64,000 nt of DNA from Dokdonella immobilis (GTDB lineage Bacteria; Pseudomonadota; Gammaproteobacteria; Xanthomonadales; Rhodanobacteraceae), in contig NZ_FOVF01000003.1 in NCBI RefSeq assembly GCF_900115085.1, forward strand, positions 186,001 through 250,000, written 5' to 3'. This document shows positions 7,492 to 50,781 of this stretch, piece after piece (position 1 is the stretch's first letter; every line of letters begins with the position of its first letter). Position numbers and translations under genes: made by a program. The notes beneath the pieces were generated by a model. That model saw only the letters and a program-made list of their open reading frames with translations, made no database searches and was not told the DNA's origin.

Positions 7492-7493
7492 GG

Positions 7494-11207: not shown

Positions 11208-11261
11208 GGCATTCACCAGTATCGTTGGATTCGTCGTGCAGGTTCGGACAGTTCCGCCCTG

Positions 11262-12011
11262 CTAGCTGTTCGCCGCCCGATGCTCGCGGCGGAATTCATC
11301 GAGCAAGGCGCGCGCTTCGTCGTCCAGACTCACGCGCGCCAGCAAATCAGGGCGCCGCAGCCAGGACCGGCCCAGGGCCTGCTTGCGTCGCCAACGCCGG
11401 ATCATCGCGTGATCACCCGACATCAATATTTCCGGCACGTCACCCAGCGCATCGCTGACCGGGCGTGTGTAGTGCGGGCAATCGAGCAGGCCATCCGTGA
11501 AGGAATCCTGTTCGGCGGACTGCGCATCGTTCAACGCGCCATCCTGTAATCGCCCAACCGCATCGATCACGACCGCCGCCGCCAACTCGCCACCCGAGAG
11601 GACGTAGTCGCCGATGGAAACTTCCTCGTCGACCAGTTTTTCCAGGACACGCTCATCGACGCCTTCGTAGCGACCGCACAGCAGGATCAATCGATCCATG
11701 CGTGCGAATTCCAATACCTTTTCCTGCGTGAGCCGCGCTCCCTGCGGACTCAGATAAACCACTCGTGCCGACTGCGCGGTTGCCGATTTGACGCTTTCGA
11801 TGGCGTCGCGCAAAGGCCCGATCGTCATCAGCATGCCGGGACCGCCGCCAAACGGGCGCCCATCGACCGTGCGATGGTTGTCGGTCGCAAAATCGCGCGG
11901 GTTGCAGGTCGTTACCTGCAGCAAACCACGCTCCTGCGCCCTTCCCACCACGCCGATTCCGGCACAGGAATCGATGAACTCCGGGAACAGCGTGATGACG
12001 TCGATGCGCAT
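11262..12011 (-). CDS. trmD: tRNA (guanine37-N1)-methyltransferase
   Basis: TrmD methylates G37 next to the anticodon using S-adenosylmethionine and prevents +1 frameshifting. The 249-residue protein has the SPOUT trefoil-knot motifs [31 protein letters not shown] and [14 protein letters not shown], plus the N-terminal [12 protein letters not shown] and the RPFGGGPGM loop. It sits in the invariant order rpsP-rimM-trmD-rplS, 26 bases after rimM. Length is normal. Confidence 0.97.
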
Positions 12012-36463: not shown

Positions 36464-36817
36464 GGGGGTGTCATGGCTTCGACGGGGGTAGTGAGATAGC
36501 TTGGTGCATGCCGAGGGGGCGACTTTCCTCGTTAATCCAGTAGCAAACTTTTAGTTGCCAACGACGACAACTACGCTCTCGCCGCTTAAGGCGTAAGCCG
36601 GGAACCCACTTGTGCTCATGCTCGTGGATGTACCGTCACTATCATGGGATAGCCCGAATCCGCGGTCTGACGGAGCACGGCGAAATCTTCCAGACTGGTC
36701 AACCGGTGCGTTTCGCACATCGTACTGCCGGAAGACGAGATCGAACGATGAGCTAAGCATGTAGGACTGGGCGTCAATCGCCTTCGGACGCGGGTTCAAC
36801 TCCCGCCACCTCCACCA
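36464..36817 (+). ncRNA. ssrA: Transfer-messenger RNA (tmRNA)
   Basis: The 354-base gene has the tRNA-like ends: 5' GGGGGTG pairs with CACCTCC, followed by the discriminator A and an encoded CCA at 36817. The T-arm CGGGTTCAACTCCCG is intact. The tag reading frame GCC...TAA (36557-36589) encodes ANDDNYALAA, close to the E. coli ANDENYALAA. A TAGCAT element at 36448-36453 may be the -10 of its promoter. The 3' end borders an accessory region, and a degenerate copy of the last ~198 bases occurs at 39016-39213. With SmpB it rescues stalled ribosomes. Confidence 0.95.
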
Positions 36818-36823
36818 ATAATG

Positions 36824-36855
36824 AAACCCCAACCGTTCTCGGTTGGGGTTTTTTT
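36824..36855 (+). terminator. Intrinsic terminator of ssrA
   Basis: AAACCCCAACCG (36824-36835) pairs perfectly with 36840-36851 around a TTCT loop, and a run of T follows (36849-36855). It is seven bases after the tmRNA 3' end. Confidence 0.93.
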
Positions 36856-37129
36856 CTTGCCTGATCGGGCCGGTTCCCGCGTGTTCCTGGGGGTTCCTGC
36901 GCAAGCCTGCGGACCGTACCGGTCAGCCTCTCGGTACGTTTCGGTCAACATTCCACTCTCTCCTGGCCAATACTCGCTCCGACGTCGCTCCCGAAAATGG
37001 CCCGAAGTCCGCAAAGGCCGCAACGCAGACCCATATGGATCAAATAGTTACGCGTGAACCAGTCAAGCGGTTGGATTGTAGCATTGGCTATCGGAGGGGA
37101 CACACGCTTGCCCCAGCGAGCTATCGCAC
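36856..37129. other. Spacer between ssrA and the AbiE pair
   Basis: About 270 bases with short frames only. It is the left margin of the accessory region. No integrase gene, direct repeat or hairpin that I can defend lies here. Confidence 0.4.
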
Positions 37130-37158
37130 TTGCAGTTTGTCAGAAACTCGCATATCTT
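37130..37158 (+). promoter_or_regulatory. Promoter and candidate operator of the AbiE pair
   Basis: TTGCAG (37130-37135) and TATCTT (37153-37158) are 17 bases apart. The spacer holds an inverted repeat, AGTTT-N5-AAACT (37134-37148), well placed for repression by the antitoxin. The predicted transcription start falls at or next to the ATG at 37166, so the message may be leaderless. Confidence 0.6.
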
Positions 37159-37165
37159 TTCTTAC

Positions 37166-37786
37166 ATGAACGCGACGACCAAGACTGCCGAGCTGATTCG
37201 CGAGCGCATCGAGGCGATGCCGACCGGGGAGCCTTTCACCCCGACAGCATTCCTGGAGTGCGGCACGCGTGCTTCCGTCGATCAGACCCTCTCCCGCCTC
37301 GTCAAGGCTGGGTCGATCGAGCGCATGACGCGCGGTGTCTTTGTGCGTCCCGAGGTCAGCCGTTTCGTCGGCAAGGTTAGCCCCTCGCCGCTGAAGGTGG
37401 TCGAGACTGTCGCTAAGACCACGGGCGCCGTCGTCCAGGTTCACGGTGCCGAAGCGGCACGTCGGCTCGAACTAACCACGCAGGTTCCAACCCAGTCGGT
37501 ATTCGTGACATCCGGCCCGTCGAAGCGCATCCGCGTGGGGAAGATGGAGATCCGTCTGCAGCACGTCTGTCAGCGCAAGTTGGCCCTGGCGGGTCGACCC
37601 GCCGGGCTCGCGCTTGCGGCGATGTGGTATCTCGGCAAGAAGGAAGTGACGCCGGCCCTCGTCGAGAAGATTCGGCGCAAGCTGGGATCGAGCGAGTTCG
37701 AGGTGTTGAAGTCAGCCACCAGCTCGATGCCTGCGTGGATGAGCGACGCCATCTTCCGAAACGAGCGGATGGCCATTCATGCTTGA
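37166..37786 (+). CDS. AbiEi-type antitoxin candidate (DUF6088-like)
   Basis: The 206-residue protein has an N-terminal winged-helix segment (PFTPTAFLECGTRASVDQTLSRLVKAGSIERMTRGVF, roughly 20-60) and a C-terminal domain with VQVHGAEAARRLELTTQVP and SKRIRVGKMEIRLQH, the pattern of AbiEi/DUF6088 antitoxins that bind their own promoter. It overlaps the AbiEii gene by 8 nt, so both are made together. The start ATG 37166 follows a -10 by only seven bases and has no ribosome binding site; an in-frame start at 37130 would lie in the promoter. In the family this protein represses and neutralises the toxin by lowering its expression. Confidence 0.8.
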   Translation: MNATTKTAELIRERIEAMPTGEPFTPTAFLECGTRASVDQTLSRLVKAGSIERMTRGVFVRPEVSRFVGKVSPSPLKVVETVAKTTGAVVQVHGAEAARRLELTTQVPTQSVFVTSGPSKRIRVGKMEIRLQHVCQRKLALAGRPAGLALAAMWYLGKKEVTPALVEKIRRKLGSSEFEVLKSATSSMPAWMSDAIFRNERMAIHA

Positions 37787-38783
37787 GTCCTTCCTGCACC
37801 TGAAGTCTCAAGAGCAGTCCCAGATCTATCGGGCACTGGCTCCGCAGCTTAACCGCACGCCCGTCGTACTGGAAAAAGATGTCTGGGTCTGCTGGGTGCT
37901 GCAGACCCTGTTCACCATGCCCGACCGACTTCCGATGGCCTTCAAGGGCGGCACATCACTATCCAAGGTGTTCGGAGCCATCGCACGCTTCTCCGAGGAC
38001 GTGGACATCACCCTCGACTATCGAGGACTGGACGGAACCTTCGACCCATTTGCCGGAGGGGTCTCGCGCAATCGACTGAAGAAATTCAGCGAGGATCTCA
38101 AGTCCTTTGTGCGCGGCCATGCACACGATGTCGTGGCGCCGCACTTTCAGAAGATGCTGGCGGACGAGTTCGATGCCGATGCATTCCAGCTTGACGTCAG
38201 CGATGACGGCGAGCAGATGCGGGTGCACTACCCGAGCGTACTGGAGGCACCAGGAGACTACGTCGGTAACAGCGTCCTGATCGAGTTCGGTGGCCGCAAC
38301 ATCACCGAGCCGAATGAGGAGCATGTGGTGCGGCCCGAGATTGCGGAACATGTAGCTGAACTCGAATTCCCTCGCTCGACGGTCAGTGTGCTGTCTCCGA
38401 CACGCACCTTCTGGGAAAAGGCGACGCTGATACACGTCGAGTGTCAGCGCGACGAGTTCCGCACAGGCGCCGAACGTCTGTCACGCCACTGGTACGACCT
38501 GGCCATGCTGGCCGATCTTGCCCATGGGCAAGCCGCTGTGGCCGATCACGCTATGCTCGCGGACGTCGTCAAGCACAAGAAGGTCTTCTACAACGCGAGC
38601 TACGCCAACTACGACGCATGCCTGGCCGGGCAGCTCAGACTCATTCCGGACGATGCCGCACTGGCCGCGCTGCGCGATGACTTCCAGCGCATGATCGGTG
38701 CCGGCATGTTTATCGGCGAGCCTCCCGTATTCGATGCCATCGTCGATCGCCTGCGCGCGCTGGAAACGACAATCAATCAGTGA
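37779..38783 (+). CDS. abiEii: AbiEii-type nucleotidyltransferase toxin
   Basis: The 334-residue protein has the AbiEii/AbiGii nucleotidyltransferase signature: LEKDVWV (31-37), FKGGTSLSKVF (55-65) and RFSEDVDITLD (70-80), with the catalytic DxD in EDVD. Related toxins transfer nucleotides onto tRNA or other targets and stop growth, aborting phage infection. A second conserved region (RTFWEKATLIHVECQR) lies in the C-terminal half. It overlaps the antitoxin gene by 8 nt. Together they form a type IV abortive-infection system next to ssrA. Both key motifs appear intact, so it is probably functional. Confidence 0.87.
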   Translation: MLESFLHLKSQEQSQIYRALAPQLNRTPVVLEKDVWVCWVLQTLFTMPDRLPMAFKGGTSLSKVFGAIARFSEDVDITLDYRGLDGTFDPFAGGVSRNRLKKFSEDLKSFVRGHAHDVVAPHFQKMLADEFDADAFQLDVSDDGEQMRVHYPSVLEAPGDYVGNSVLIEFGGRNITEPNEEHVVRPEIAEHVAELEFPRSTVSVLSPTRTFWEKATLIHVECQRDEFRTGAERLSRHWYDLAMLADLAHGQAAVADHAMLADVVKHKKVFYNASYANYDACLAGQLRLIPDDAALAALRDDFQRMIGAGMFIGEPPVFDAIVDRLRALETTINQ

Positions 38784-39010
38784 CCTCCCGCTGGCGTTGA
38801 GCCGTCAATCCTCGCCTGCTGCTCATGCCACAGCGCTTGCGGATCGACCGCCAGATCGAACATTGTGATGTGGTTCGGCAGCGTGTCGTCCAGGATGGCG
38901 GCAACGATGTCGGGTGCCAGCGTGGTGAGGTAGTCCGTCCGGCTGACGTAGCTGTTGTCGATGCCTGCCCGTGTGGCGATCTCCTTCAAAGACTTCACCT
39001 GCCTCGATTC
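38777..39010 (-). pseudogene. C-terminal remnant of a serine-recombinase-type protein
   Basis: Minus-strand codons from ~39010 to the stop at 38777 read ESRQVKSLKEIATRAGIDNS, then a LAPDIVAAILD segment and WHEQQARI. This resembles the helix-turn-helix C-terminus of large serine recombinases, which often end in a pattern like 'APDIVEAIL...'. The N-terminal catalytic domain is missing: six bases beyond the last recognisable codon the ssrA copy begins, and the open frame continues through it only by chance. The stop overlaps the end of abiEii by 7 nt. This is probably what is left of the element's mobility gene. The family assignment rests on the short C-terminal pattern and is tentative. Confidence 0.6.
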
Positions 39011-39015
39011 CGGCA

Positions 39016-39213
39016 CTCGTGGATGTACCGTCGTTATCATGGGATAGCCCGAATCCGCGGCCTTGACGAACCACGGCGAAATCTTCCAGACGAGTCCACA
39101 GATGCGTTTCGCACAACGTACTGTCGGAAGGCGAGATCGAACGATGAGCAAAGCATGCAATACCGGGCGTCAACTGTCTTCGGACGCAGGTTCAACTTCC
39201 GCCACCTCCACCA
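39016..39213 (+). repeat. Diverged copy of the 3' part of ssrA
   Basis: These 198 bases align by eye with ssrA 36621-36817, with about 23 substitutions and one indel (near 88% identity), ending in the same CCACCTCCACCA. The copy lacks the 5' half, the tag frame and the intact T-stem (GCAGG against TCCGC contains an A-C mismatch), so it cannot make tmRNA. It looks like the displaced or donor half of ssrA left by integration of an element. Confidence 0.85.
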
Positions 39214-39333
39214 AACAAGGACGTCCTTTGATTACAGGTACTTAGAGAGCACCTGGGTCCAAGGTTGGGATGCAGGTCCTACTACCTTGACCCCCGAGCC
39301 ATTCTTGGCAAAGTCCTTAGCCCCGACTCCGGC

Positions 39334-39885
39334 CTACATGATCTCGATGCCGCCCTCTGGGGTCGCTTTGCCAATCATGTTGGAGTCCGGGTCTAGCACA
39401 TAGATGCTGCGCGGCTTGTCCGCCAGACAGGCATCCGTGTTCACAATCGCCTCTATCATTTTCCGGCGCATCTCATCGTTGCTGCGCAGAACCACCCACG
39501 TATCCCTGCGCGCATGAACGAAAACCGGTTCGGTCGAATTCCGATCGTAGACGAAAGACTGCTGGAGCATTGCATAGGTTTTTTCCGGATCGCCACGCGA
39601 GCAAGCCTCGTTGACCTTCTTGTCGCTCACAATTGTGATGGGGGTAACCGGCATGGCCCTAGGCGGACGCTTGACTGGAGCTGGCCTAGGAATTGTCGCG
39701 ATACTTCCAATCAGGCCAACTAGCACTAACGCCGCGAGAACCAACGCCCAACGAGTATTTGACTTGGCAGGTTTGCGAGCACCGCACTTCGGACAGACAG
39801 CGGCGCTTGAGCTAACTGGATCTCCACAGTCCTTACACGGCGTTATGGCCACAACGCGCTCCCCAACGGTTTTGGTCTTATTCAC
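39334..39885 (-). CDS. Zinc-ribbon membrane protein of unknown function
   Basis: The 183-residue protein starts with a zinc ribbon: CKDCG (17-21) and CPKCG (31-35). One transmembrane helix follows (WALVLAALVLVGLIGSIATI, ~46-65), and then a ~115-residue domain presumably on the other side of the membrane. The domain has no family that I recognise. Zinc-ribbon-plus-helix proteins of this sort are common cargo in accessory regions. Its codon use and lower GC content match the neighbouring foreign stretch. It lies between the AbiE pair and the restriction operon; no functional tie can be shown. Confidence 0.65.
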   Translation of the reverse strand: MNKTKTVGERVVAITPCKDCGDPVSSSAAVCPKCGARKPAKSNTRWALVLAALVLVGLIGSIATIPRPAPVKRPPRAMPVTPITIVSDKKVNEACSRGDPEKTYAMLQQSFVYDRNSTEPVFVHARRDTWVVLRSNDEMRRKMIEAIVNTDACLADKPRSIYVLDPDSNMIGKATPEGGIEIM

Positions 39886-40455
39886 ATGATACGCATGTCG
39901 TGCTGTCGAGCTCTAGCTCGCGCCCGCACTCGTCCGATGGCTGCGACGACCGCCGTCATCGAAGTCCATTCCAGACTGCCTGCCATCTGCCTAACCACAA
40001 CTCATATCTCCCAAACTCCAAGCTCTAGTCCGAGCGACTTGGATAAGAAGCGGGAGAAGCCTGCACGTTATGAATAGCCGGGGCCTCCCAATCTCCGCAA
40101 TGCCCTACATCGCGCGACACAGCACCCCACAGCCTATGCTGAGGGTGAAGCCTACAAATACTTCGCCCCCTCCTTTGCCCATCTGGTCGGAATTATGGTG
40201 CGCATGCCGGAACTCCCGGCTACTTAGCACTTCGCTTTCTCGCAATCCAGCACCGGCGTCAAGGCGTGCCTGCCCTCTCTTGTCCGAGCCAATGGGCCAT
40301 CAAGCTGCTTGCAGCGCTTTGACGCGACCGCGTCCAATGCCTGCCTGCAATAGTAGCCATAGGGCGACTGGAATTTGCGCCTAGCAACTAGATCATTGGG
40401 GTCGAAAGGCAACAATTGGGGCTGAAAGCATGAGTACCTGCGATGACACAACTTG
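39886..40455. other. Gene-poor stretch before the restriction operon
   Basis: About 570 bases of lower GC content than the flanks. Short frames occur on both strands, including one on the minus strand at 40224-40451 and one on the plus strand at 40070-40384, but neither has recognisable sequence. It may contain decayed genes; I see no repeat or RNA. Confidence 0.4.
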
Positions 40456-40483
40456 TTGCACGAGAGAATCGTGTCAATATTCT
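40456..40483 (+). promoter_or_regulatory. Promoter and candidate operator of the hsd operon
   Basis: TTGCAC (40456-40461) and TATTCT (40478-40483) are 16 bases apart. An inverted repeat, TTGCACGA-N5-TCGTGTCAA (40456-40463 and 40469-40477; one bulged base), covers the -35 and spacer. The position is right for a repressor site. A strong AGGAGGG and a GGAG precede the hsdR ATG. Confidence 0.55.
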
Positions 40484-40518
40484 TCTAGTTTCGTCCAGGA
40501 GGGTGGGAGCAATCCAAT

Positions 40519-42924
40519 ATGGAAGATCACGCTCCAAAAATTCAGACCGAAGCCGACACCTGCCGGGAACTGGTCACGCCCAAGCTTGTCGAGGCCGGAT
40601 GGGGCCATGCGCCGCACGTGATCGGCGAGCAGCGCACTTTCACGAATGGCCGCATCATCGTGACTGGCGGCCGTGTGCGCCGTGGCAAGCAGAAACGTGC
40701 TGACTACCTGCTGTACTACCGGCGCGACTATCCGTTAGCCGTCGTGGAAGCGAAGGAACTGGGGCTGCGGGCGGAAACCGGGGTGCAGCAGGCCAAAGAG
40801 TACGCCGAGATTCTCGGCCTGAAGTTCGCTTATGCCACCAACGGCCATCGCATCATCGAGATCGACTACACCACCGGCATCGAGCGTGAGGCGGATCGCT
40901 TCGCCACGCCCGCCGAACTCTGGCAGCGACTAACCGCCGCTACCGCTCTACCCGATCCGACCACACCCCACCTACTCGAACCCTTCAACCTGGTTTCGGG
41001 CAAGGTGCCGCGCTATTACCAGCAGATTGCGATCAATCGAGTCATCGAAGCTATCCTGCTTGGTCAAAAACGCATCCTTGCCACATTGGCCACCGGCACC
41101 GGCAAGACCTGCGTGGCGTTTCAGCTGTGCTGGAAGTTGTGGAGCAGCCGCTGGAACCGTACCGGCGAATACCGCCGGCCGAAGATCCTGTTCTTGGCCG
41201 ATCGCAACATCCTGGTCGATGACCCGATGGCCAAGATGTTCGCGTCGTTTGGCGACGCCCGCCACAAGATCGCCGGTGGCGACGTAAGCCAGAGCCGTGA
41301 CATGTACTTCGGCATCTATCAGGCGCTGTCCACCGCCAACGAAGACGTGTTCCGTCAGTACCGGCCGGACTTCTTCGATCTGATCATCATCGACGAATGC
41401 CATCGCGGCTCCAGCCGCAACGATAGCAACTGGCGTGCGGTGCTCGACTACTTCGCGCCCGCCGTGCAGTTCGGCATGACGGCCACGCCGCTGCGCGAGG
41501 AATCGCGCGACAGCTACGAATACTTCGGCAACCCGGTTTACACCTACAGCCTGCGCCAAGGCATCGAGGATGGTTTCCTCGCCCCCTATCGGGTGCATCG
41601 TGTGATCACAACGGTGGATGCCGCAGGCTGGCGACCGTCCAAGGATGAGCTCGACCGCTTCGGCCGGCCGGTGCCGGACGATGAGTACCAGACCAAGGAT
41701 TTCGAGCGCGTCATCGCGCTGCGGGCGCGCACCAAGGCCATTGCCAAGCACCTCGCCGACTTCCTCAAGGGCACCGACCGCTTCGCCAAGACCATCGTGT
41801 TCTGCGTCGACCAGGAGCACGCAGCCGAAATGCGCCAGGAGCTGGTCAACCTCAACAGCGATCTGGTCAAGCAATACCCGGACTACGTCTGCCGCGTCAC
41901 TGCAGACGAAGGCGCCATTGGCCTCACCCACCTCGCACACTTTCAGGACGTCGACAAACCCACACCGGTGATCCTGACCACCTCGCAATTGCTGACCACC
42001 GGCGTCGACGCCGAGATGGTCAAGAATGTGGTGCTGGCCCGCGTGGTCGGCTCCCGCTCCGAGTTCAAGCAAATCATCGGCCGCGGCACCCGACTCAAGG
42101 TCGACTACGGCAAGGAATACTTCAACATCATCGACTTCACCGGCACCGCCACCCGGCATTTCGCCGATCCGGATTTCGATGGCGATCCCGCGCGCATCGA
42201 GGAAGTGACCATCGACGATGCCGGTGAAACCGTCGATACCGTCGTCGAAACGCCGCCCGGTATCGAAGACGAGCAGGCCGACTACACCGTCGACACCACG
42301 GAAACCGACGCAGGCCAGGGCGAAATCCTCACCGAACCGCCTGAGGAGCCGCGCAAGTTCTACGTGGACGGGGGCGACGTCGAAGTGATCGGTCATCTGG
42401 TCTACGACCTCGACACTGACGGCAAGAAGCTTCAGGTGGTCAAGTACACCGAGTACTCGGGCCGCACCGTCCGCACCCTGTACCCGACCCGCGATGCGCT
42501 GCAATCGGCCTGGGCCAATCCCGACACCCGCGCGGAGGTGCTGCGCGAACTGACCGAGCGCGGCATCAGTTTCGAGGAGCTGGCGGCAAGCGCCGACCAG
42601 CCCGACGCCGACCCCTTCGATCTGCTGTGTCATCTGGCCTGGAACGCGCCGCTGCTCACTCGCCGCCAGCGTGCCGAGCAGGCCAGGAAGGCGGCGCAGG
42701 ATCTGTTCGGTCAATACGGCGATTCAGCCCGCGAAATCCTCACGCTGCTGCTCGACAAGTACATTGAGCGCGGCATCGTCCAGTTCAACGCCCTTTCCGA
42801 GCTGATGAAGGTGCAACCCTTCGACCGCTTCGGCAGCCCCTCCGAAATCGCCACCCGGCATTTCGGCGGCATCAAACCCTTCAAGGAAGCCGTCTCGCGC
42901 TTGCAGACGGCCCTTTACCAATGA
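40519..42924 (+). CDS. hsdR: Type I restriction endonuclease subunit R
   Basis: HsdR translocates and cuts DNA that lacks the host methylation. The 801-residue protein begins with a PD-(D/E)xK nuclease domain: Asp62 and the motif VVEAKE with Glu77 and Lys79. The superfamily 2 motor follows, with Walker A ATGTGKT (191-197), DECH (292-295) and TATP (321-324), then the C-terminal helicase half (GVDAEMVKNVVLAR, IGRGTRLK). The C-terminal ~200 residues resemble the EcoEI-type HsdR tail that contacts the methylase. All key motifs are intact. It leads hsdR-hsdM-hsdS-SIR2; hsdM follows after 14 bases. Confidence 0.95.
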   Translation: MEDHAPKIQTEADTCRELVTPKLVEAGWGHAPHVIGEQRTFTNGRIIVTGGRVRRGKQKRADYLLYYRRDYPLAVVEAKELGLRAETGVQQAKEYAEILGLKFAYATNGHRIIEIDYTTGIEREADRFATPAELWQRLTAATALPDPTTPHLLEPFNLVSGKVPRYYQQIAINRVIEAILLGQKRILATLATGTGKTCVAFQLCWKLWSSRWNRTGEYRRPKILFLADRNILVDDPMAKMFASFGDARHKIAGGDVSQSRDMYFGIYQALSTANEDVFRQYRPDFFDLIIIDECHRGSSRNDSNWRAVLDYFAPAVQFGMTATPLREESRDSYEYFGNPVYTYSLRQGIEDGFLAPYRVHRVITTVDAAGWRPSKDELDRFGRPVPDDEYQTKDFERVIALRARTKAIAKHLADFLKGTDRFAKTIVFCVDQEHAAEMRQELVNLNSDLVKQYPDYVCRVTADEGAIGLTHLAHFQDVDKPTPVILTTSQLLTTGVDAEMVKNVVLARVVGSRSEFKQIIGRGTRLKVDYGKEYFNIIDFTGTATRHFADPDFDGDPARIEEVTIDDAGETVDTVVETPPGIEDEQADYTVDTTETDAGQGEILTEPPEEPRKFYVDGGDVEVIGHLVYDLDTDGKKLQVVKYTEYSGRTVRTLYPTRDALQSAWANPDTRAEVLRELTERGISFEELAASADQPDADPFDLLCHLAWNAPLLTRRQRAEQARKAAQDLFGQYGDSAREILTLLLDKYIERGIVQFNALSELMKVQPFDRFGSPSEIATRHFGGIKPFKEAVSRLQTALYQ

Positions 42925-42938
42925 CGAGAAGTTCCTGA

Positions 42939-44735
42939 ATGGCCGCACCGGAAAAGAAAACCAGAACCAAACGTGCCAAGGCACCGCTGACCACACGGGA
43001 CAATCTGTCGGCGCTGATCGGCAGCGCCCGCAAGATCCTGCGCAAGGACAAGGGCCTCAATGGAGACGTCGACCGCCTGCCGCTCCTCACCTGGGTGATG
43101 TTCCTCAAGTTCCTCGACGACCTCGAAGTCGTGCATGAGGAAGAAGCGGAGCTCGACGGCAAGCCCTACCACCCCATCATCGAATCGCCCTACCGCTGGC
43201 GCGACTGGGCTGCGCGCGAGGATGGCCTCACCGGCGACGAACTGCTGGCCTTCATCAACCAGGACGAATGCCACCGCGCCGACGGCTCACGCGGCGCCGG
43301 CCTGTTCGCCTATCTGCGAGGTCTGGCCGGCAGCGGCGAAAAAGGCAGCCAGCGTGAGGTCATCGCCAACGTGTTTCGCGGCGTGCAGAACCGCATGGTC
43401 AGCGGCTACCTGCTGCGCGACATCATCAACAAGATCAACGGCATTCATTTCAGCTCAAGCGAGGAGATCCACACCCTCTCGCACCTGTACGAATCCATGC
43501 TGCGCGAGATGCGCGACGCCGCCGGTGACTCCGGCGAGTTCTACACCCCACGCCCGGTCGTGCGCTTCATGGTGCAGGTCACCGACCCGCGCCTGGGCGA
43601 GACCATGCTCGACCCGGCCTGCGGCACCGGCGGGTTTCTGGTGGAGGCCTACGACCACATTGCTCAGCAGGTGACCAACCCGGATCAGCGTCGCACCTTG
43701 CAGCGCGACACCCTGTTCGGCCAGGAGGCCAAGCCGCTGCCCTACATGCTGGCGCAGATGAACCTGCTGCTGCACGGGCTGGAAGCGCCGCAGATCGCCT
43801 ACGGCAACACGCTGGAACGGCGCATTACCGAAATTGGCCACGATGAACGAGTCGATGTGATCCTCACCAACCCGCCCTTCGGCGGCGAGGAGGAAGCCGG
43901 CATCAAGGCCAACTTCCCGGCCAACATGCAGACGGCCGAAACCGCACTGCTGTTCCTGCAGTACATCATGCGCAAGCTGCGCTACGCCGGGCATGGCGCA
44001 GAGCAGGGAGGCCGTGCCGCCGTGGTGGTGCCCAACGGCACCCTGTTTGGCGATGGCGTATGCGCCGTCATCAAGGGGGAGATGCTCAAGGAATTCAACC
44101 TCCACACCATCGTGCGCCTGCCGCAAGGCGTGTTCGCGCCCTACACCGACATCCCGGCCAACCTGCTGTTCTTCCAGCGCGGCGGCCCCACCGACACCAT
44201 CTGGTACTACGAACTGCCCCAGCCCGAAGGCCGCAAGAAATACAGCAAGACCGCACCGTTGCCCTTCGAAGCCTTCCAGCCCGTGCTCGAGTGGTGGAAC
44301 GCCCGCCAGGAAGGCCCGCAAGCCTGGCGCGTGGGCTTCGCCGCCAAACGTGCCGCCGCCATCGACGCCGCCACGCCGCACTGGCAGCGAGCCGAAACCG
44401 AACGCGCCAGCGCACTCGCTCTAGGCAAGCCAATCCGCGAACTGGATCAGACCATCAGCCATGCCGCCAATGGCGACAAGGCCGCGCTGCAAGCGCAGTT
44501 GCGAGAGCTGAAAATCCGCCAGCAGGCCCATGAGGCCGCCGCCAAGGCCGCGCAGGCGGAGGGTGATGCGCTCTACTGGCCGATCTACAACCTGGACCTG
44601 AAGAACCCGCATGCCGCCGAAGGGCTGGAGCACGCCGATCCGAAGGACCTGGTCGCTGCCATGCGTGCCGGAGAAGAGGACGTGCTGCGCCTGCTCAGCG
44701 AGATTGAGGCACTGGTGACCGAGGTGCAGGGATGA
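42939..44735 (+). CDS. hsdM: Type I DNA methyltransferase subunit M
   Basis: HsdM methylates adenine in the recognition site using S-adenosylmethionine. The 598-residue protein has the N-terminal HsdM helical domain (~20-165), the SAM motif DPACGTGGFL (225-234) and the catalytic motif NPPF (311-314). A coiled-coil-like C-terminus (~500-560, rich in Ala, Glu, Lys and Gln) probably binds HsdS. The stop overlaps the hsdS start (ATGA), so subunit supply is coupled. Confidence 0.95.
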   Translation: MAAPEKKTRTKRAKAPLTTRDNLSALIGSARKILRKDKGLNGDVDRLPLLTWVMFLKFLDDLEVVHEEEAELDGKPYHPIIESPYRWRDWAAREDGLTGDELLAFINQDECHRADGSRGAGLFAYLRGLAGSGEKGSQREVIANVFRGVQNRMVSGYLLRDIINKINGIHFSSSEEIHTLSHLYESMLREMRDAAGDSGEFYTPRPVVRFMVQVTDPRLGETMLDPACGTGGFLVEAYDHIAQQVTNPDQRRTLQRDTLFGQEAKPLPYMLAQMNLLLHGLEAPQIAYGNTLERRITEIGHDERVDVILTNPPFGGEEEAGIKANFPANMQTAETALLFLQYIMRKLRYAGHGAEQGGRAAVVVPNGTLFGDGVCAVIKGEMLKEFNLHTIVRLPQGVFAPYTDIPANLLFFQRGGPTDTIWYYELPQPEGRKKYSKTAPLPFEAFQPVLEWWNARQEGPQAWRVGFAAKRAAAIDAATPHWQRAETERASALALGKPIRELDQTISHAANGDKAALQAQLRELKIRQQAHEAAAKAAQAEGDALYWPIYNLDLKNPHAAEGLEHADPKDLVAAMRAGEEDVLRLLSEIEALVTEVQG

Positions 44736-45880
44736 GCCTGTGGCCGACAGTCGAGCTCGGCGACGTGATGTGCGTCCACATCGATGCCGTTCCGAGCGCC
44801 ACGCTGACCTCGGTGAATCTCGCCGGTGTTTACGGATTTGGACGCGGGCTATTTCAACGCGGCCCGATCTCGCCACAGGAGACGTCCTACAAGAACTTTC
44901 ATCGGCTGAATGCGGGTGATTTTGTAATAAGTAGCCCGAAAGCCTGGGAAGGCGCATTGGCTCGCATTCCGGAAGAAATGGACGGGTGGTTCTTGTCTCC
45001 AGTGTTCCCAACCTTTCGGCCCACTGACGCTCTCGACACTCGGTACCTTGACTGGTACTGCAAGCGAGAAGCCGTCTGGAGACAACTGCAAGGCAAGGCG
45101 AAAGGTATGGGGGCACGGCGCGAGTCGGTATCACCAGCTCAGTTCTTGAGCCTGGAGATTCCCCTGCCGCCGCTCACCGAACAACAAGCCATTGTCAGCC
45201 GTCTCGACACTTTGGCCGACAAGGTTCGGCAGGTGAACGAACACCTCGACGCCATCGAGCGCGACGCCGATCGTCTGCTCGCCGTGCGCTTTCGTGACGC
45301 TATTGCCGATGCGCCCATGCGACCGATGGCGGAGGTGGCGCCGCTGGTGCGGCGTGAGATCATCATCAACCCAGACAAAGACTACACGGAGCTTGGTGTT
45401 CGCAGCTTCTACAAAGGGACATTTCAGCGTCGCACGATCCCAGGCTCGGACTTTTCATGGCAGGCCTTGTACCGTGTCCAAGCCAGCGACCTAGTTTTCA
45501 GCAACATCATGGCTTGGGAACAGGCCATTGCGATTGCCCAGCGCTGTGACGACGGCTGCGTCGGCAACCACCGGATGCTAACTTGCCAAGCAAATGCGGA
45601 AGTCGCGGTTCCTTGCTTCCTCTGGTACTACTTCACCACGGAGGAAGGCTTCTCAAAGATTTACGCTGCCTCACCCGGAACCGCCGCCCGCAACCGGACG
45701 ATGACGGCACCGGCACTGATGGCGATCGATGTCCCTATGCCACCATTGTCTGCGCAGCGAACTTTCAACGCCCTGCAATCCAAGGTGGCAGAACTCAAAG
45801 CCCGCCACGCCACCATCCGCCAGGCCAACGACGCACTGATCCCGGCAACGCTGGAACGCGTGTTTTCCGGGGCTGACTGA
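44732..45880 (+). CDS. hsdS: Type I specificity subunit S
   Basis: HsdS chooses the DNA target through two target recognition domains (TRD). TRD1 covers about residues 1-145, a conserved helical spacer follows (PLPPLTEQQAIVSRLDTLAD, ~146-195), TRD2 lies at ~196-335, and a second conserved helix closes the protein (NALQSKVAELKARHATIRQA). Each half follows the usual layout, and no frameshift or inverted repeat for phase variation is visible in the gene. The two half-sites cannot be predicted here. Its stop is followed without a gap by the SIR2 gene. Confidence 0.92.
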   Translation: MSLWPTVELGDVMCVHIDAVPSATLTSVNLAGVYGFGRGLFQRGPISPQETSYKNFHRLNAGDFVISSPKAWEGALARIPEEMDGWFLSPVFPTFRPTDALDTRYLDWYCKREAVWRQLQGKAKGMGARRESVSPAQFLSLEIPLPPLTEQQAIVSRLDTLADKVRQVNEHLDAIERDADRLLAVRFRDAIADAPMRPMAEVAPLVRREIIINPDKDYTELGVRSFYKGTFQRRTIPGSDFSWQALYRVQASDLVFSNIMAWEQAIAIAQRCDDGCVGNHRMLTCQANAEVAVPCFLWYYFTTEEGFSKIYAASPGTAARNRTMTAPALMAIDVPMPPLSAQRTFNALQSKVAELKARHATIRQANDALIPATLERVFSGAD

Positions 45881-48800
45881 ATGCAATTCGTTCGCCACGG
45901 TCCCGATATCCCCGAACGCCTGTTGCAGGCGCATGAGGACGGGCGTGTGGTGTTCTTCTGCGGTGCGGGCATTTCCTACCCGGCCCGCCTGCCGGGGTTT
46001 TCAGGGCTGGTCGACAAGCTCTATACGGCCCTCGCAGCCACACCCAACGCCGTGCAACTGGCGGCGATCAAGGCGGGGCAGTTCGATACCGCCATCGGCT
46101 TGCTGGAGGCGGACATCGTCGGCGGCCGCGAGACGGTGCGCCGCGCGCTGGCCGCCATCCTCACGCCGGATCTCAGTGCCCCGAACGCGACGGCGACCCA
46201 CGAGGCCTTGCTGACGCTGGGCAAGTGCCGTAACGGCAATACCCGCCTCATCACCACCAACTTCGATCGGCTATTCGAGGAAGTGATTACCGCGAAGTCG
46301 CTATCGATCGAGCGTTTCCAGGCGCCGCTGTTGCCGGTGCCGAAGAACCGCTGGGATGGCTTGGTGTATCTGCATGGCCTTCTCACCGCTGCGCCGACAG
46401 CGAGCGATCTGGATCGGCTGGTCGTCTCCAGCGGCGATTTTGGCCTGGCCTATCTCACCGAGCGCTGGGCGGCGCGTTTCGTCAGCGAGCTGTTCCGCAA
46501 CTACACCGTGTGCTTCGTTGGTTACAGCATCAACGACCCGGTGCTGCGCTACATGATGGACGCACTGGCCGCCGACCGCCTGCTCGGCGAGGCGCCGCCC
46601 GAGATGTTCGCGTTCGGCAGTTACTCCAAGGGCAAGGACGAAGAACGCGCCAACGAGTGGCGGGCCAAGAACGTCACGCCCATCCTCTACCGCGAGCACA
46701 ATCGGCACGACTACCTGCACAAGACCCTGCGTGCCTGGGCCGAAACCTACCGCGACGGCGTACGCGGCAAGGAGCGCATCGTCGTCGAGTGCGCCATGGC
46801 GCGGCCCATGGCAAACACCCGGCAGGACGACTTCGTCGGGCGCCTGCTGTGGGCGCTGAGCGATCCGGGCGGCCTGCCCGCCAGGCGCTTTGCCGACCTA
46901 GACCCGGTGCCGTCACTGGATTGGCTGGAGCCGCTGAGCGAGGAACGCTACCGGCAGGCCGACTTGGACCGCTTCGGCGTCCCGCCCAGAACGACCGTGG
47001 ATGACAAGCTCACCTTCAGCCTGACTCGCCGACCCTCGCCGTATCCGCTCGCACCGTCGATGTGTATCGTCGATGCCGGTGCGCGCGGCAGCCGCTGGGA
47101 CGAGGTGATGCGGCAACTGGCGCGTTGGCTGATCCGTCATCTGGACGACCCGGCGCTGCTGCTATGGTTGGTCAAACGCGGCGGGCAGCTGCATGACGAT
47201 CTGGTCTGGTGGATCGAACACTGTCTGGACAAACTGGCCAAACTTGAGCGTGACGGCAAAACCGCCGAGTTGACGCGCATTCGTGAGGGTGCGCCCAACG
47301 CGATCCCCGGCCCGCTGATGCGCACCCTGTGGCGGCTGCTGTTGACCGGGCGCGTAAAATCGTGGCGGCATGACTTCGACCTGTACCGCTGGCGCGACCG
47401 CTTCAAGCGCGATGGGCTCACCACCACCTTGCGCCTGGAACTGCGCGAAACACTGACGCCACGCGTATCGCTGCGCGAGCCGTTCCGTTCGCCCGCCGAG
47501 GAAAGTGACGGTCGCGTGCCCGAGCGCATCAAGGAGCTGGTGGAATGGGAGATCGTGCTGTCGACGGATCACGTCCATTCCAGCCTGCGTGATCTGCCAT
47601 GGGATGAGCGCTGGACCGCCGCACTGCCGGAACTGCTGTCTGATTTCAGCGCCCTGTTGCGCGACGCACTGGATCTGATGCGTGAACTCGGCAGCGCCGA
47701 GGACAGAAGCGATCGGTCCTACATGCATCAACCATCGATCAGCGAGCACCCGCAGAACCGGGACTTCCACGACTGGACGGCACTGATCGACCTGACCCGG
47801 GATGCGTGGCTCGCCACTGTTGCGCAATCACCGGCGCGGGCAGCCGTGGTGGCGCAGTCCTGGAGGCACACGCCCTATCCGCTGCTCCGGCGCCTCGCCT
47901 TCTTTGCCGCTGCACAGGACAACGTGATACCCCTCCGCCGTGCCCTCGACTGGCTGCTAGCCGATGACCACTGGTGGCTTTGGTGCGTGGAAACCGAGCG
48001 GGAAGCCATGCGCCTGCTGGTGACCCTGGCGCCGCAACTCGATGAGGTAATGCTGCGGGAACTGGAACAAGCCGTGCTCGCTGGCCCACCCCGCGACATG
48101 TTCAAGGATGACATAAAGCCCGAGCGTTGGAGGCAGATCGTGGACCGGGAGATCTGGCTGCGTCTGGCAAAAATCGCTGATACCGGCACGGCCTTGGATG
48201 TTACCGGCAACGAACGGTTGGCGGCGCTTTCGGCCCAGTATCCGGAATGGCAACTGGCGGTAGATCAGCGCGATGAGTTCCCTTACTGGATGGGCGATGG
48301 CGATGAGTGGCGTAGGTTCGTTGCCACGCCGCGCCGCCGCCGAGAGTTGATCGAATGGCTCAAGCAGCAGCCCAGCACCGACCACTGGCAGGAAGACGAC
48401 TGGCGGCAGCGCTGTCGTGACAACTTTGCTACGACTGCCTGTGCCTTGTTTGCGTTGGCCAAGGAAGGTGTCTGGCCGACAGATCGCTGGCGAGAAGCGC
48501 TGCAGGCTTGGTCAGAGGAAAAACTCCTGAAGCGCGCTTGGCGACACATGGCACCAGTGTTCGCGGATGCACCCGATGATCTACTGAAAACGCTTGCCCA
48601 TGGTGTGAGCTGGTGGTTGCAAGCCATCGCCAAGACCTTCGAAGGCCACCAAGTGCATTTCTTCGAGCTGGCTCGCCGACTCCTTGCGCTGGATCATCAG
48701 GACGGCGTCGATACAGACGAACCCGTCATGCATGCCATCAATCACCCAGTGGGCCACGTGACGGAGGCGCTGCTGCGCTGGTGGTATCGACACACGCTGG

Positions 48801-49663
48801 AGGATGGGCAAGTCTTACCGGAGGAAATCAGGCCCACATTCATCGAACTCTGCGACACCCGGATCCACAAGTTCCGGCACGGCCGTGTCTTGCTCGCAGC
48901 CCATGTCATCGCGCTGTTCCGTGTCGACCGGGAATGGGCGACGCACCATCTGTTACCGCTATTCGACTGGCAGCGCTCAGAATTAGAAGCGCGCGCCGCG
49001 TGGGAGGGCTTCCTGTGGTCCCCCCGCCTGTACCGACCCTTGATGGAACTGCTCAAGCCGGCCTTTCTCGAAACCGCGCGCCACTATGGGGCACTCGGCA
49101 AGCACGACGGCCAATACGCTTCTCTGCTGACATTCGCCGCCCTCGACCCGGGTGACACTTTCACCACCGCCGAGCTGGCGGCCGCCACCCGCGCACTGCC
49201 ACCGGACGGTTTGCACGATGCCGCACACGCATTGGTGAGAGCGCTGGAGGGCGCAGGCGATCAGCGTGCCGACTACTGGACCAACCGGGTAACGCCGTAC
49301 CTCCACGCCATTTGGCCCAAGACCCGGGACAACATTTCCCCGGCCATCGCCGAGAGCCTCGGCCGCCTCTGCGTCGCGGCACAGGATGCATTCCCACAGG
49401 CATTGGCCCTACTCCGCGCCTGGCTGCAACCGCCGGCCCACCCTGACTATCTGGTACATCGGTTACACGAGGCAGGTCTCTGCGGCAAGTTTCCGGAACA
49501 GGCACTGGACTTCCTGAGTCTGGTGATTGGGGATCAAACCCAATGGCCACCCAGTGACCTCGGCGCCTGCCTTGACGCGATACGAATAGCCACGCCGGAA
49601 CTTGAGGCTGATCCGCGCTTTGAACGGTTGATGGCGTACCTTCGCCAGCGTGGGCGAGGCTGA
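45881..49663 (+). CDS. Large SIR2-domain protein co-transcribed with the type I R-M genes
   Basis: The 1260-residue protein opens with a SIR2-family NAD-binding domain: GAGIS (28-32), TTNFD with Asn127 and Asp129, YLHG with His165, and VGYSINDP (213-220). In defence-associated sirtuins these residues support hydrolysis of NAD+, which stops infection by depleting the cofactor. The remaining ~950 residues are Trp- and Arg-rich, mostly helical, and without a domain I recognise; they may sense a phage trigger or bind a partner. The ATG follows the hsdS stop at once (TGAATG), implying co-translation. Size and layout resemble the defence-associated sirtuin DSR1 class, but homology of the C-terminal part is not shown. 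The open frame is uninterrupted. Confidence 0.85.
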   Translation: MQFVRHGPDIPERLLQAHEDGRVVFFCGAGISYPARLPGFSGLVDKLYTALAATPNAVQLAAIKAGQFDTAIGLLEADIVGGRETVRRALAAILTPDLSAPNATATHEALLTLGKCRNGNTRLITTNFDRLFEEVITAKSLSIERFQAPLLPVPKNRWDGLVYLHGLLTAAPTASDLDRLVVSSGDFGLAYLTERWAARFVSELFRNYTVCFVGYSINDPVLRYMMDALAADRLLGEAPPEMFAFGSYSKGKDEERANEWRAKNVTPILYREHNRHDYLHKTLRAWAETYRDGVRGKERIVVECAMARPMANTRQDDFVGRLLWALSDPGGLPARRFADLDPVPSLDWLEPLSEERYRQADLDRFGVPPRTTVDDKLTFSLTRRPSPYPLAPSMCIVDAGARGSRWDEVMRQLARWLIRHLDDPALLLWLVKRGGQLHDDLVWWIEHCLDKLAKLERDGKTAELTRIREGAPNAIPGPLMRTLWRLLLTGRVKSWRHDFDLYRWRDRFKRDGLTTTLRLELRETLTPRVSLREPFRSPAEESDGRVPERIKELVEWEIVLSTDHVHSSLRDLPWDERWTAALPELLSDFSALLRDALDLMRELGSAEDRSDRSYMHQPSISEHPQNRDFHDWTALIDLTRDAWLATVAQSPARAAVVAQSWRHTPYPLLRRLAFFAAAQDNVIPLRRALDWLLADDHWWLWCVETEREAMRLLVTLAPQLDEVMLRELEQAVLAGPPRDMFKDDIKPERWRQIVDREIWLRLAKIADTGTALDVTGNERLAALSAQYPEWQLAVDQRDEFPYWMGDGDEWRRFVATPRRRRELIEWLKQQPSTDHWQEDDWRQRCRDNFATTACALFALAKEGVWPTDRWREALQAWSEEKLLKRAWRHMAPVFADAPDDLLKTLAHGVSWWLQAIAKTFEGHQVHFFELARRLLALDHQDGVDTDEPVMHAINHPVGHVTEALLRWWYRHTLEDGQVLPEEIRPTFIELCDTRIHKFRHGRVLLAAHVIALFRVDREWATHHLLPLFDWQRSELEARAAWEGFLWSPRLYRPLMELLKPAFLETARHYGALGKHDGQYASLLTFAALDPGDTFTTAELAAATRALPPDGLHDAAHALVRALEGAGDQRADYWTNRVTPYLHAIWPKTRDNISPAIAESLGRLCVAAQDAFPQALALLRAWLQPPAHPDYLVHRLHEAGLCGKFPEQALDFLSLVIGDQTQWPPSDLGACLDAIRIATPELEADPRFERLMAYLRQRGRG

Positions 49664-49851
49664 GGTCGTGTCTTTGTGGCATGCGTCAGTTATCCGAAAA
49701 TCCCGGATTACTGGACCCCACCCCCGCAACCATCCGGAGATTCCGGACAGTTACCGATTCGCAAGCGCGGGAATTTGCACTTGTCTGCAACAGTCCGAAA
49801 CGGCTGACCGAGGAACCAGTTTTGCTGTTAACCGTCCGCCACTAAATCGGA

Positions 49852-49877
49852 AGCCCGGACCTTGTCCGAGCTTTCTT
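49852..49877 (+). terminator. Possible terminator after the SIR2 gene
   Basis: AGCCCGGAC-CTT-GTCCGAGCT (49852-49872) is an imperfect stem-loop with one mismatch, followed by TTCTT. It lies about 190 bases after the SIR2 stop and just before the convergent EamA gene. The short U-tract makes the call weak. Confidence 0.35.
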
Positions 49878-49890
49878 GTAGGCGGGTTCG

Positions 49891-50781
49891 TCAGACGCCG
49901 TTGGCGTCGGCCGGGACCACGGCCTTCTCGCGCCGGATCAGGTAGATGCCGCTGGCGATGATGATGGCGGCGCCAATGAGCATCAGGCGATCGGGCAGCG
50001 TCTTCCAGATCAGCCAGTCGAGGCCGACGCCCCAGGCCAGGGCGGTGTATTCGAACGGGGCGATGATCGAGGCCTCGGTGTGCTTGAAGGCCTCGGTCAC
50101 GGCGTACTGGCCGAAGGCGCCAGTGACCGCGAGGCCGGCCAGTACCCACCAGTGTTCGTCATGGATCGGCATCCAGTCCTTCCAGGCCGCGAGGCCGGCA
50201 AACAGGCTCAGCAGCACGATCATCCAGAAGACCATGCCCTGGGTCGAATCGGTGCGGCCGAGGACGCGAACGGTGATCGCCGACAACGAGTAGGCGGTCG
50301 ACGCGAACAACACGGCCGCGCTACCCAGGTTGACCATGCGCGTCGCGTCGGGCCGCAATACGACCAGCACGCCGACCAAGCCGACCCCGATCGCGCACCA
50401 GCGCCGCCAGCCGACGCGTTCGCCGAGCAGGGGCACGGCCAGCGCGGTGACCAGCAGCGGCGCGATGAAGAACAGCGAATAGGCTTCGGCCAGGGGCAGA
50501 TCGCGCAGCGCGAACGCGAATGCGGCGAGCATCAGCACGGCCAGCACGCCGCGCAGCAGGTGCAGGAACCAGCGCGCGCTCAAGACGTGATGGAAGCCGC
50601 CGGTCAGGGCGATCCAGATCAGCACGAGGGGCAGCGAGGTGAGACCGCGCAGGGCAGCGACCTGCATCGGCGGGTAGTGCAGCGAGAGTACCTTGAGGCT
50701 CGTATCCATCAGCGAAAACGCAGCCACCGCTGCAAGCATGAACAGGATACCGCGCAGGTTGGGCGACATCGGAGGCTTCAT
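49891..50781 (-). CDS. EamA-family DMT transporter
   Basis: The 296-residue protein is a drug/metabolite transporter with ten predicted membrane helices in two EamA repeats (MLAAVAAFSLMDTSLKVLSL at the start; ATRMVNLGSAAVLFASTAYS opening the second half). Members export amino acids, nucleosides or drugs; this subgroup (YdcZ/RhaT-unlike, close to Pseudomonas 'DMT permease') has no fixed substrate. It starts the core genome to the right of the accessory region and is divergent from the PDZ lipoprotein, about 95 bases away. Confidence 0.88.
   Translation of the reverse strand: MKPPMSPNLRGILFMLAAVAAFSLMDTSLKVLSLHYPPMQVAALRGLTSLPLVLIWIALTGGFHHVLSARWFLHLLRGVLAVLMLAAFAFALRDLPLAEAYSLFFIAPLLVTALAVPLLGERVGWRRWCAIGVGLVGVLVVLRPDATRMVNLGSAAVLFASTAYSLSAITVRVLGRTDSTQGMVFWMIVLLSLFAGLAAWKDWMPIHDEHWWVLAGLAVTGAFGQYAVTEAFKHTEASIIAPFEYTALAWGVGLDWLIWKTLPDRLMLIGAAIIIASGIYLIRREKAVVPADANGV

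Follow-up and report, generated by a model that had tools for sequence, protein, structure and literature searches.

A type I restriction-modification (R-M) operon with a SIR2 gene as its fourth member was located in the window, i.e. the entire 64,000-nucleotide stretch analysed from Dokdonella immobilis (contig NZ_FOVF01000003.1, positions 186,001 to 250,000). The operon resides on a defence island at the tmRNA gene ssrA. hsdR, hsdM, hsdS and the SIR2 gene (dsr1) all lie on the + strand, and none of these window ORFs contains an internal stop. The features of the locus are as follows:

36464..36817, + strand: tmRNA gene ssrA (ARAGORN), integration target
36819..49835, no strand: defence island, about 13.0 kb, absent from genome G006
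37130..37786, + strand: AbiEi-like antitoxin (PADLOC AbiEi, Pfam DUF6088), separate island unit
37779..38783, + strand: AbiEii-like nucleotidyltransferase toxin (PADLOC and Pfam searches), separate island unit
39016..39214, + strand: duplicate of the ssrA 3' end, matching it at 94% over 48 nt and 87% over 151 nt
40519..42924, + strand: hsdR, 801 aa, type I restriction subunit of the EcoAI/FtnUII family (NF046051, PADLOC REase_I)
42939..44735, + strand: hsdM, 598 aa, N6-adenine methyltransferase subunit (PF02384 E 3.8e-62, PADLOC MTase_I)
44732..45880, + strand: hsdS, 382 aa, specificity subunit (PF01420), 4-nt overlap with hsdM
45868..45880, + strand: 3' end of hsdS, weak Shine-Dalgarno-like CGGGGC 7 nt upstream of the dsr1 ATG, TGA/ATG junction
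45881..49663, + strand: dsr1 (SIR2 gene), 1260 aa, defence-associated sirtuin (NF041818, PADLOC Dsr1 E 0)
49826..49836, no strand: distal island end with a short ssrA-like CGCCAC (comparison with G006, L013 and L061)

The empty site of the island was found in G006, a genome of the same genus (flank 91% identical), in which window position 36818 is followed by window position 49836. In G004 and G007 the flank gene had no nearby tmRNA gene, and these genomes were uninformative on the empty site. Within the island, the ssrA 3'-end copy separates the AbiE unit from the hsdRMS-DSR1 unit, and the position of AbiE differs, lying before hsdRMS-DSR1 in the window and after it in L013 (L numbers denote individual loci). 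The island is mobile and a tandem of swappable defence units.

The R-M unit was assigned to the EcoAI/FtnUII type I systems, with hsdR, hsdM and hsdS open and HsdR scoring 1017.2 bits against NF046051 (EcoAI/FtnUII; cut-off 550). Pfam matches in the operon comprised PF02384, PF01420 and PF13289. These open frames and family and domain matches bore out the claim of a preliminary description of this DNA that the three hsd genes are intact. In alignments, the first half of the window HsdS (residues 15-140) diverged from L013, L046 and L061 (19-21% identity), and the second half (residues 205-345) was common to them (53-70% identity). The R-M family of the window was rare: a reverse survey at E 1e-100 matched 10 of the 369 genomes of the class, the window's own included, the best of the nine others having 51% identity, and at E 1e-150 a survey of the order matched 1 of 151 genomes, namely the window's own.

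The product of the SIR2 gene is DSR1 over its whole length, residues 1-1255 matching positions 1-1263 of model NF041818 with 2026.6 bits (cut-off 1400). The preliminary description had held that the C-terminal part carries no recognised domain and had proposed its comparison with DSR1; this comparison gave the whole-length match, and the C-terminal part therefore belongs to a recognised family. The SIR2 domain is N-terminal (about residues 1-270). The remainder was modelled as a mostly helical solenoid (AlphaFold2, residues 271-1260, mean pLDDT 86), and a fold search with it listed generic HEAT-type solenoids with low TM-scores. The motifs GAGIS, TTNFD, YLHG and GYSINDP are present in the window protein, and in an alignment of 47 DSR1 proteins at least 93% of the sequences retain N127, H165, GAG-S, TTNFD and GYS--DP. 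H165 aligns to the KomC histidine mutated as H146N in PDB 9xvc, the position being counted by hand from the alignment. The earlier assignment of NAD-binding motifs to the SIR2 domain was thus upheld, and the catalytic residues of the NAD site, checked as a possible refutation, proved to be conserved. In its length (about 1260 aa), full-length family match and SIR2 domain with conserved N127 and H165, the protein resembles DSR1 elsewhere; it differs in that its gene is the last of a type I R-M operon, whereas 40 of 50 loci lack an R-M gene as nearest upstream gene. DSR2 likewise combines a SIR2 domain and a large C-terminal sensor in one protein, according to the available text of PMC10973363. 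The search with the window C-terminal part gave no sequence match to DSR2, returning SIR2-domain chains and one catalase (E 0.68); the search with the SIR2 part listed DSR2 at E 0.18 or worse, and DSR2 was not among the best 50 of 858 fold matches.

As had been described, dsr1 begins at the base after the hsdS stop, the TGA of hsdS directly abutting the ATG of dsr1 (45880/45881; zero gap). With this arrangement the four genes would share one transcript, and the TGA/ATG junction suggests that dsr1 translation is probably coupled to that of hsdS. A scan of 39200-50000 found 0 sigma-70-like sites, which is weak evidence since shuffles yield 1.9.

The neighbourhood survey that the preliminary description called for indicated that the adjacency of DSR1 and R-M genes is not incidental. 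Patterns derived from the window protein were used to gather the 52-locus sample, in which related loci are not independent. In 7 of 46 loci an R-M gene abutted the DSR1 start on the same strand (gap -30 to +10 nt); among other genes this was so for 1 of 328 (p 2e-6), with an R-M reference set drawn in part from DSR1 neighbours. The DSR1 start was immediately preceded by a stop codon in 18 of 66 loci, among them the true hsdS cases; for other genes the figure was 16 of 353 (p 1.2e-7). Among 50 loci holding the DSR1 start, the first gene upstream on the same strand, at up to 500 nt, was an R-M gene in 10, and 12 had no same-strand gene upstream within that distance; in L048 the R-M gene lies one step further upstream than the nearest gene. 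The phylum and relatives samples contributed nine loci, each with 1.5 kb of DNA, in which no R-M gene was found directly upstream of DSR1; the result was the same for seven annotated plasmid DSR1 loci, whose gene tables are incomplete. Viral contigs, used as a second sample, yielded one pattern match and no DSR1 relative. An hsdS-domain match was missing in 18 of 50 DSR1-bearing genomes, by a search that missed the half hsdS of L014. The pairing of R-M and DSR1 is real and recurrent, and each half also occurs without the other. An obligate type I partnership was considered and rejected, since type III methyltransferases adjoin DSR1 as well and it also occurs alone.

Three further EcoAI-family hsdRMS-dsr1 operons were identified (L013, L046 and L136). 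All four frames are open in L013 and L136, and the dsr1 frame of L046 ends after 1153 codons. Identity to the window was 83% for HsdR and 64% for DSR1 in L046, and 83% and 49%, respectively, in L136; on these alignments, DSR1 and hsdRM diverge differently. Partners were also swapped or lost. A type III methyltransferase directly precedes DSR1 in L021, L028 and L043, the DSR1 of L028 being 87% identical to that of the window. L014 has an open DSR1 with no hsdR or hsdM nearby and half an hsdS alone left, after tRNA-Thr; L031 has an open DSR1 with no intact hsdR or hsdM nearby, an hsdR start with a stop being followed by dsr1. Conversely, hsdRMS is open in L061 and DSR1 is reduced to a 208-codon tail, with a SLATT/TGT/HhH/QueC/TIR cassette between hsdS and this tail. 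A frameshift interrupts dsr1 in L135/L138. Because dsr1 is broken in L046 and L135, the pairing does not always preserve DSR1.

On balance, we favour the reading that the four-gene operon on the ssrA island is a recurrent R-M carrier with an independent second layer, DSR1. DSR1 is kept without R-M subunits and stands behind other kinds of R-M, which argues for a carrier of an independent layer, and since each half exists without the other, the arrangement resembles defence in layers more than a novel machine. As part of the same explanation, and held with the same moderate confidence, the hsdS-dsr1 junction would be either old or repeatedly formed, with R-M decay and retention of dsr1 in several lineages. 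The EcoAI-family enzyme would cut incoming DNA without its methyl mark, as its family suggests. From the DSR1/DSR2 literature, DSR1 most likely senses a phage protein via its helical C-terminal part, after which the SIR2 domain would cleave NAD+; it can apparently dispense with the R-M subunits. As an account of the locus, a modular layer that is co-expressed is preferable to an obligatory suicide back-up. Of the pairing of restriction with an NAD effector put forward previously, what was retained is an R-M operon whose fourth gene encodes a SIR2 effector, with adjacency beyond chance; the back-up reading was not retained. Triggering when restriction fails found no support, given the open DSR1 of L014 and L031, the open hsdRMS with a DSR1 tail in L061, and DSR1 behind type III genes. 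The term abortive was equally unsupported: in the accessible text of a review (PMC10952713), DSR1 differs from other Sir2 and TIR systems in blocking phage replication without cell death. At this locus it can be tested concretely whether restriction cooperates with a layer that depletes NAD or the two simply travel together; natural single deletions exist (dsr1 surviving the loss of hsdRM, and hsdRMS surviving that of dsr1), as does exchange of a type I for a type III partner.

It is unlikely, in our estimation, that defence genes merely accumulate at ssrA and that DSR1 behind hsdS has no functional meaning. The tandem of swappable units, with AbiE ordered differently in the window and L013, is consistent with such accumulation, as are six plasmid carriers of related R-M genes (6 of 26 records), none of which has DSR1 behind hsdS. 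However, the enrichment of both R-M abutment and a directly preceding stop codon argues against it, and hsdRMS-DSR1 operons were found even at 49% DSR1 identity.

We also doubt a guarded effector as in EcoprrI/PrrC, in which the type I complex would silence DSR1, a phage anti-restriction protein would free it, and NAD+ depletion would back up failed restriction, the role put forward earlier. The logic is the same and the gene position similar, prrC lying inside a type IC R-M operon (available text of PMC3874165 and PMC3506569) and a type I R-M operon in each case having as its fourth gene one for an enzyme that damages the host (PMC3874165, as available); moreover, the junction of hsdS and dsr1 with zero gap is found repeatedly, and some dsr1 genes lacking hsdRM nearby have hsdS pieces before them. 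Yet with PrrC the Hsd complex holds an RNase, whereas the SIR2 protein DSR1 is encoded after hsdS and has relatives with no Hsd genes beside them. An EcoprrI-type effector would be found solely or mainly with an Hsd complex; for DSR1, only 10 of 50 loci have R-M as the nearest gene upstream. Silencing of DSR1 by HsdS/HsdM is not general, because DSR1 is open without hsdR/hsdM (L014, L031), lies behind type III methyltransferases, and is without R-M as nearest upstream gene in the other 40. That the window DSR1 is inactive or decaying cargo is very improbable, since the 1260-aa open frame scores far above the family cut-off with its catalytic residues conserved. Broken copies do occur in comparable settings (L061 tail, L046 early end, L135/L138 frameshift), which speaks for decay in general, with nothing direct for the window.

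The linkage of Sir2 proteins to type I R-M systems is known already, having appeared in print in 2012 (Makarova et al., PMC3506569, in its available portion) with the proposal of a coupled suicide layer in R-M operons, Sir2 included, whose toxin is repeatedly exchanged; the couplings predicted there concern Sir2 with both type I and type III R-M. That portion contains neither DSR1 by name nor a decayed hsdS before a solitary dsr1, and the titles and abstract openings of the literature on DSR1/Sir2 with R-M reported no hsdRMS-DSR1 operon.

Returning to the independent layer on a recurrent R-M carrier, some solitary DSR1 genes are preceded by broken hsdS or hsdR pieces. BLAST detected hsdS pieces upstream of DSR1 without hsdRM in L123 (best E 9e-12) and L135 (1e-10), and an hsdS-like piece upstream of DSR1 in L024 (E 0.046). 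Taken together, the stretches of DSR1-upstream DNA showed no significant unanchored similarity to the hsdS end (Mann-Whitney p 0.42); the control 95% point was exceeded by 7 of 62 DSR1 loci and 18 of 353 controls (p 0.08). Similarity anchored at the start codon was significant (18/62 vs 2/514); as this test was devised after the data were seen, the relic claim rests on the separate BLAST matches. Such broken hsdS genes provide a way to trace the exit of a stand-alone defence gene from a restriction operon. It is conceivable, though we regard it as rather doubtful, that much of the DSR1 family goes back to the fourth gene of EcoAI-type R-M operons, with the hsdS-dsr1 junction ancestral for those lineages, R-M lost many times, and some solitary dsr1 genes keeping the hsdS end as leader and ribosome-binding site. 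If true, DSR1 would have originated as a restriction system's second layer and gained independence later. Label counts on the tree, made one group at a time (two groups at once being uninformative), gave 7 changes for the strict label (9 rows; 36 of 500 shuffles as low) and 6 changes for the lenient label (15 rows; 0 of 500 shuffles as low).

The R-M operon and the SIR2 gene form four consecutive open frames in the window:

40519-42924, + strand: hsdR, open frame; EcoAI/FtnUII family, NF046051
42939-44735, + strand: hsdM, open frame
44732-45880, + strand: hsdS, open frame, sharing 4 nt with hsdM
45881-49663, + strand: dsr1 (the SIR2 gene), open frame of 1260 residues; NF041818, PADLOC Dsr1

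The preliminary description had held that hsdR, hsdM and hsdS are intact and that the SIR2 gene starts on the base after the hsdS stop, and this was borne out: the SIR2 ATG lies directly 3' of the hsdS TGA (0-nt gap). HsdR scored 1017.2 bits in a profile search against NF046051 (EcoAI/FtnUII; cut-off 550), and the SIR2 gene 2026.6 bits against NF041818 (Dsr1; cut-off 1400), with the match spanning both ends of the protein. PADLOC also calls the gene Dsr1; Pfam alone returned SIR2_2 only. Because the protein is Dsr1 end to end, the earlier claim of a C-terminal part without a recognised domain was wrong; DSR1 itself is an already known protein. All four genes probably share a transcript, and dsr1 translation may be coupled to hsdS, within which a weak Shine-Dalgarno-like CGGGGC lies ahead of dsr1.

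All four NAD-binding motifs previously claimed for the SIR2 domain were found in the protein, and N127, H165 and the GAG-S, TTNFD and GYS--DP residues were conserved in at least 93% of an alignment of 47 DSR1 proteins. H165 pairs by alignment with the histidine of KomC in PDB entry 9xvc (H146N; position counted by hand). The predicted structure of residues 271-1260 (31 input sequences; mean pLDDT 86, pTM 0.72) is helix-dominated. Its Foldseek matches include solenoids of the HEAT type (importins, PP2A scaffold, SF3b), with low TM-scores and E-values between 2e-4 and 4e-3; DSR2 was absent among the best 50 of 858 matches. The model suggests that the C-terminal part is likely a solenoid sensor.

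The operon lies in an island at the tmRNA gene (ssrA; 36464-36817), the 3' end of which is present again at 39016-39214. A sibling genome of the same genus (G006; flank 91% identical) joins window position 36818 directly to 49836, and 36819-49835 is therefore an insertion. This tandem island comprises two units, an AbiE pair (37130-38783) and hsdRMS-DSR1, with the second ssrA 3' end copy between them. The island frames scanned, comprising the R-M, AbiE and DSR1 genes plus a frame at 39334-39885, include no integrase. Alcanivorax locus L013, another EcoAI-family operon, has the opposite unit order (hsdRMS-DSR1, short junction, AbiE; AbiE DNA identity 91.7%), with a tmRNA gene ∼10 kb upstream of hsdR, and the type III R-M/DSR1 locus of Halioglobus (L028) is <4 kb from a tmRNA gene. 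AbiE stands next to the unit once more in locus L024, where an AbiEi-like stretch with two stops (9196-9819) lies just upstream of an hsdS relic and DSR1.

Scanning of 84,980 species genomes yielded 52 DSR1 loci, a sample that favours near relatives because the search patterns derive from the window protein. Two loci (L059, L061) lack a DSR1 start, and upstream counts use the other 50. In 38 of these, a gene on the DSR1 strand with 80 or more codons ends within 500 nt upstream of DSR1, and in 10/50 this nearest upstream gene belongs to R-M:

L013, L046: hsdS
L014: hsdS half
L021, L028, L043: type III methyltransferase
L022: HsdR-like helicase
L017: HsdR
L037: HsdM
L053: type III Res

An HsdR also stands one short frame beyond the nearest upstream gene in L048. 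Pfam detected no R-M methylase, specificity or Res domain in the other 28 nearest upstream genes (all except L054; an additional gene further upstream was also scanned in L015, L026 and L056). Four of the non-R-M nearest genes carry other nuclease domains, NERD (L016, L020, L047) or Mrr (L032), and that of L057 has an HNH domain.

How often the SIR2 gene neighbours hsdS had been raised in the preliminary description. R-M genes abut 7 of 46 DSR1 starts (7 of the 8 abutting upstream genes) versus 1 of 328 other genes in the same loci (1 of 39 abutting; Fisher p 2e-6), with R-M references taken partly from the same DSR1 loci. Two of the 39 control neighbours were DSR1; for the other 37, Pfam gave 1 Methylase_S among the 25 of 46 families listed. 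On a DSR1 tree of 53 rows, the R-M label (13 rows, counting the window and the relics L014 and L031) requires 8 changes, of which well-supported branches force 5 or more, and 0/500 shuffles were as low; the pairing is therefore clustered and was gained or lost several times. L021 (3115-15882; Desulfuromonas) and L028 (3-11143; Halioglobus) share the order Res-like, type III methyltransferase, DSR1, UvrD-like helicase, to which L021 adds a short frame. In L043 (6904-8352) a reverse-transcriptase gene, possibly a group II intron, lies just upstream of the 3' part of the type III methyltransferase gene abutting DSR1.

Decayed R-M pieces also precede dsr1. In L014 half of an hsdS, beginning immediately behind a tRNA-Thr gene, leads into dsr1 via the identical TGA-ATG junction, with no hsdR or hsdM match across 23.8 kb. 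The first part of an hsdR (68% over 59 residues, with a stop) lies 30 nt ahead of an open dsr1 in L031, and 26 codons of an hsdS start (46%; E 0.046, from a small search) plus an ERVF end precede dsr1 in L024. Additional sampling of the order to which the L046 genome belongs gave 13 places in 12/399 genomes; L126 (= L014), L133 (= L046) and L132 (coordinates of L088) were known before, so 10 are new. In three of these ten, hsdS is directly upstream of DSR1: as ends of ∼50–60 codons in L123 and L135 (best E 9e-12 and 1e-10; dsr1 frameshifted in L135), and in full in L130, a complete operon (hsdR 83%, hsdM 81%, hsdS 49% and dsr1 49% identity to the window) with an extra PDDEXK gene. In a profile scan, shorter hsdS-tail-like matches in L019, L023, L030 and L038 (E 0.09 to 0.9) rank above the 353 upstream regions used as controls. 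A stop codon sits right before the start in 18/66 DSR1 loci, true hsdS cases counted, versus 16/353 other genes (p 1.2e-7), and a start-anchored 27-nt comparison with the hsdS end, designed after the tail-like cases were seen, gave 18/62 versus 2/514. An unanchored comparison of DSR1 upstream DNA with the hsdS end gave no significance. All of these tests ignore kinship, and some rows are near-copies. In the portions of the literature searched on DSR1/Sir2 with R-M, we found no description of the repeated hsdS-dsr1 junction with decayed remnants.

Each half also survives without the other. The hsdS domain had no match in 18/50 DSR1-bearing genomes, by a search of incomplete sensitivity, as the half hsdS of L014 escaped it. 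Within a phylum sample, Dsr1 matched at E 1e-100 in 15/398 genomes, 10 of them above cut-off, including the window's. No directly upstream same-strand R-M gene was present in 1.5 kb at each of nine loci drawn from this sample and one of relatives (L002, L084-L089, L091, L093; the set is without L094, and L090, L092, L095, L096 and L097 were excluded for a partial gene or a start too near an end); upstream of L002, which is the same gene as L032, lies a nuclease of the Mrr type. Nine plasmid records carry DSR1; eight were viewed, and in the seven annotated ones R-M is never the directly upstream gene. On one E. coli plasmid hsdRMS lies downstream and points towards DSR1, while the second gene upstream encodes a phosphorothioate-dependent nuclease. 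E. coli holds two DSR1 types (14/5426 and 74/5426 genomes). At the one chromosomal locus viewed for each type an integrase gene precedes DSR1: in the first it is the third gene upstream, and hsdRMS faces DSR1; in the second it is the neighbouring gene, and phage genes follow downstream. DSR1 stood behind hsdS in 0/6 viewed plasmid records (of 26 with related HsdM), one of the six being without annotated hsdS. Guarding of DSR1 by the R-M system, by analogy with EcoprrI/PrrC, a type IC system with an embedded guarded anticodon nuclease (as presented in part of PMC3874165), seems unlikely for the window operon and cannot hold in general for DSR1. The operon is best read as two independent defence layers, in which the R-M enzyme would restrict DNA and DSR1 would sense a phage protein and then cleave NAD+. 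The link of Sir2 to type I R-M and the idea of a coupled suicide layer are already published (PMC3506569), and a passage of a review states that DSR1 inhibits phage without cell death (PMC10952713).

The position after hsdS is a gene-exchange site. Among the window, L046 and L136 (both further EcoAI-family operons), HsdR and HsdM distances are about equal (79–83% identity) and DSR1 identities unequal (64%, 49%, 46%), which suggests that behind one R-M family DSR1 alleles were exchanged or evolve at unequal rates; the L046 dsr1 frame stops after 1153 codons. In locus L061 the frames of HsdR and HsdM (both 96% identical) and of hsdS are open, and hsdS is followed by a SLATT/TGT/HhH/QueC/TIR cassette and only the last ∼208 codons of DSR1. 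The stretch between hsdS and the DSR1 tail (6721-10001) encodes, in one direction, a membrane protein of the SLATT/DUF4231 type, an enzyme resembling TGT, a protein similar to Ogg-HhH glycosylases, QueC and a TIR protein of the ThsB type, and is possibly a base-modification plus TIR defence cassette. Genes are also inserted between hsdM and hsdS: two carriers of this R-M family, L136 (reverse complement 10815-11964) and L075 (10794-11927), have a PDDEXK nuclease gene there, and the two are 64% identical.
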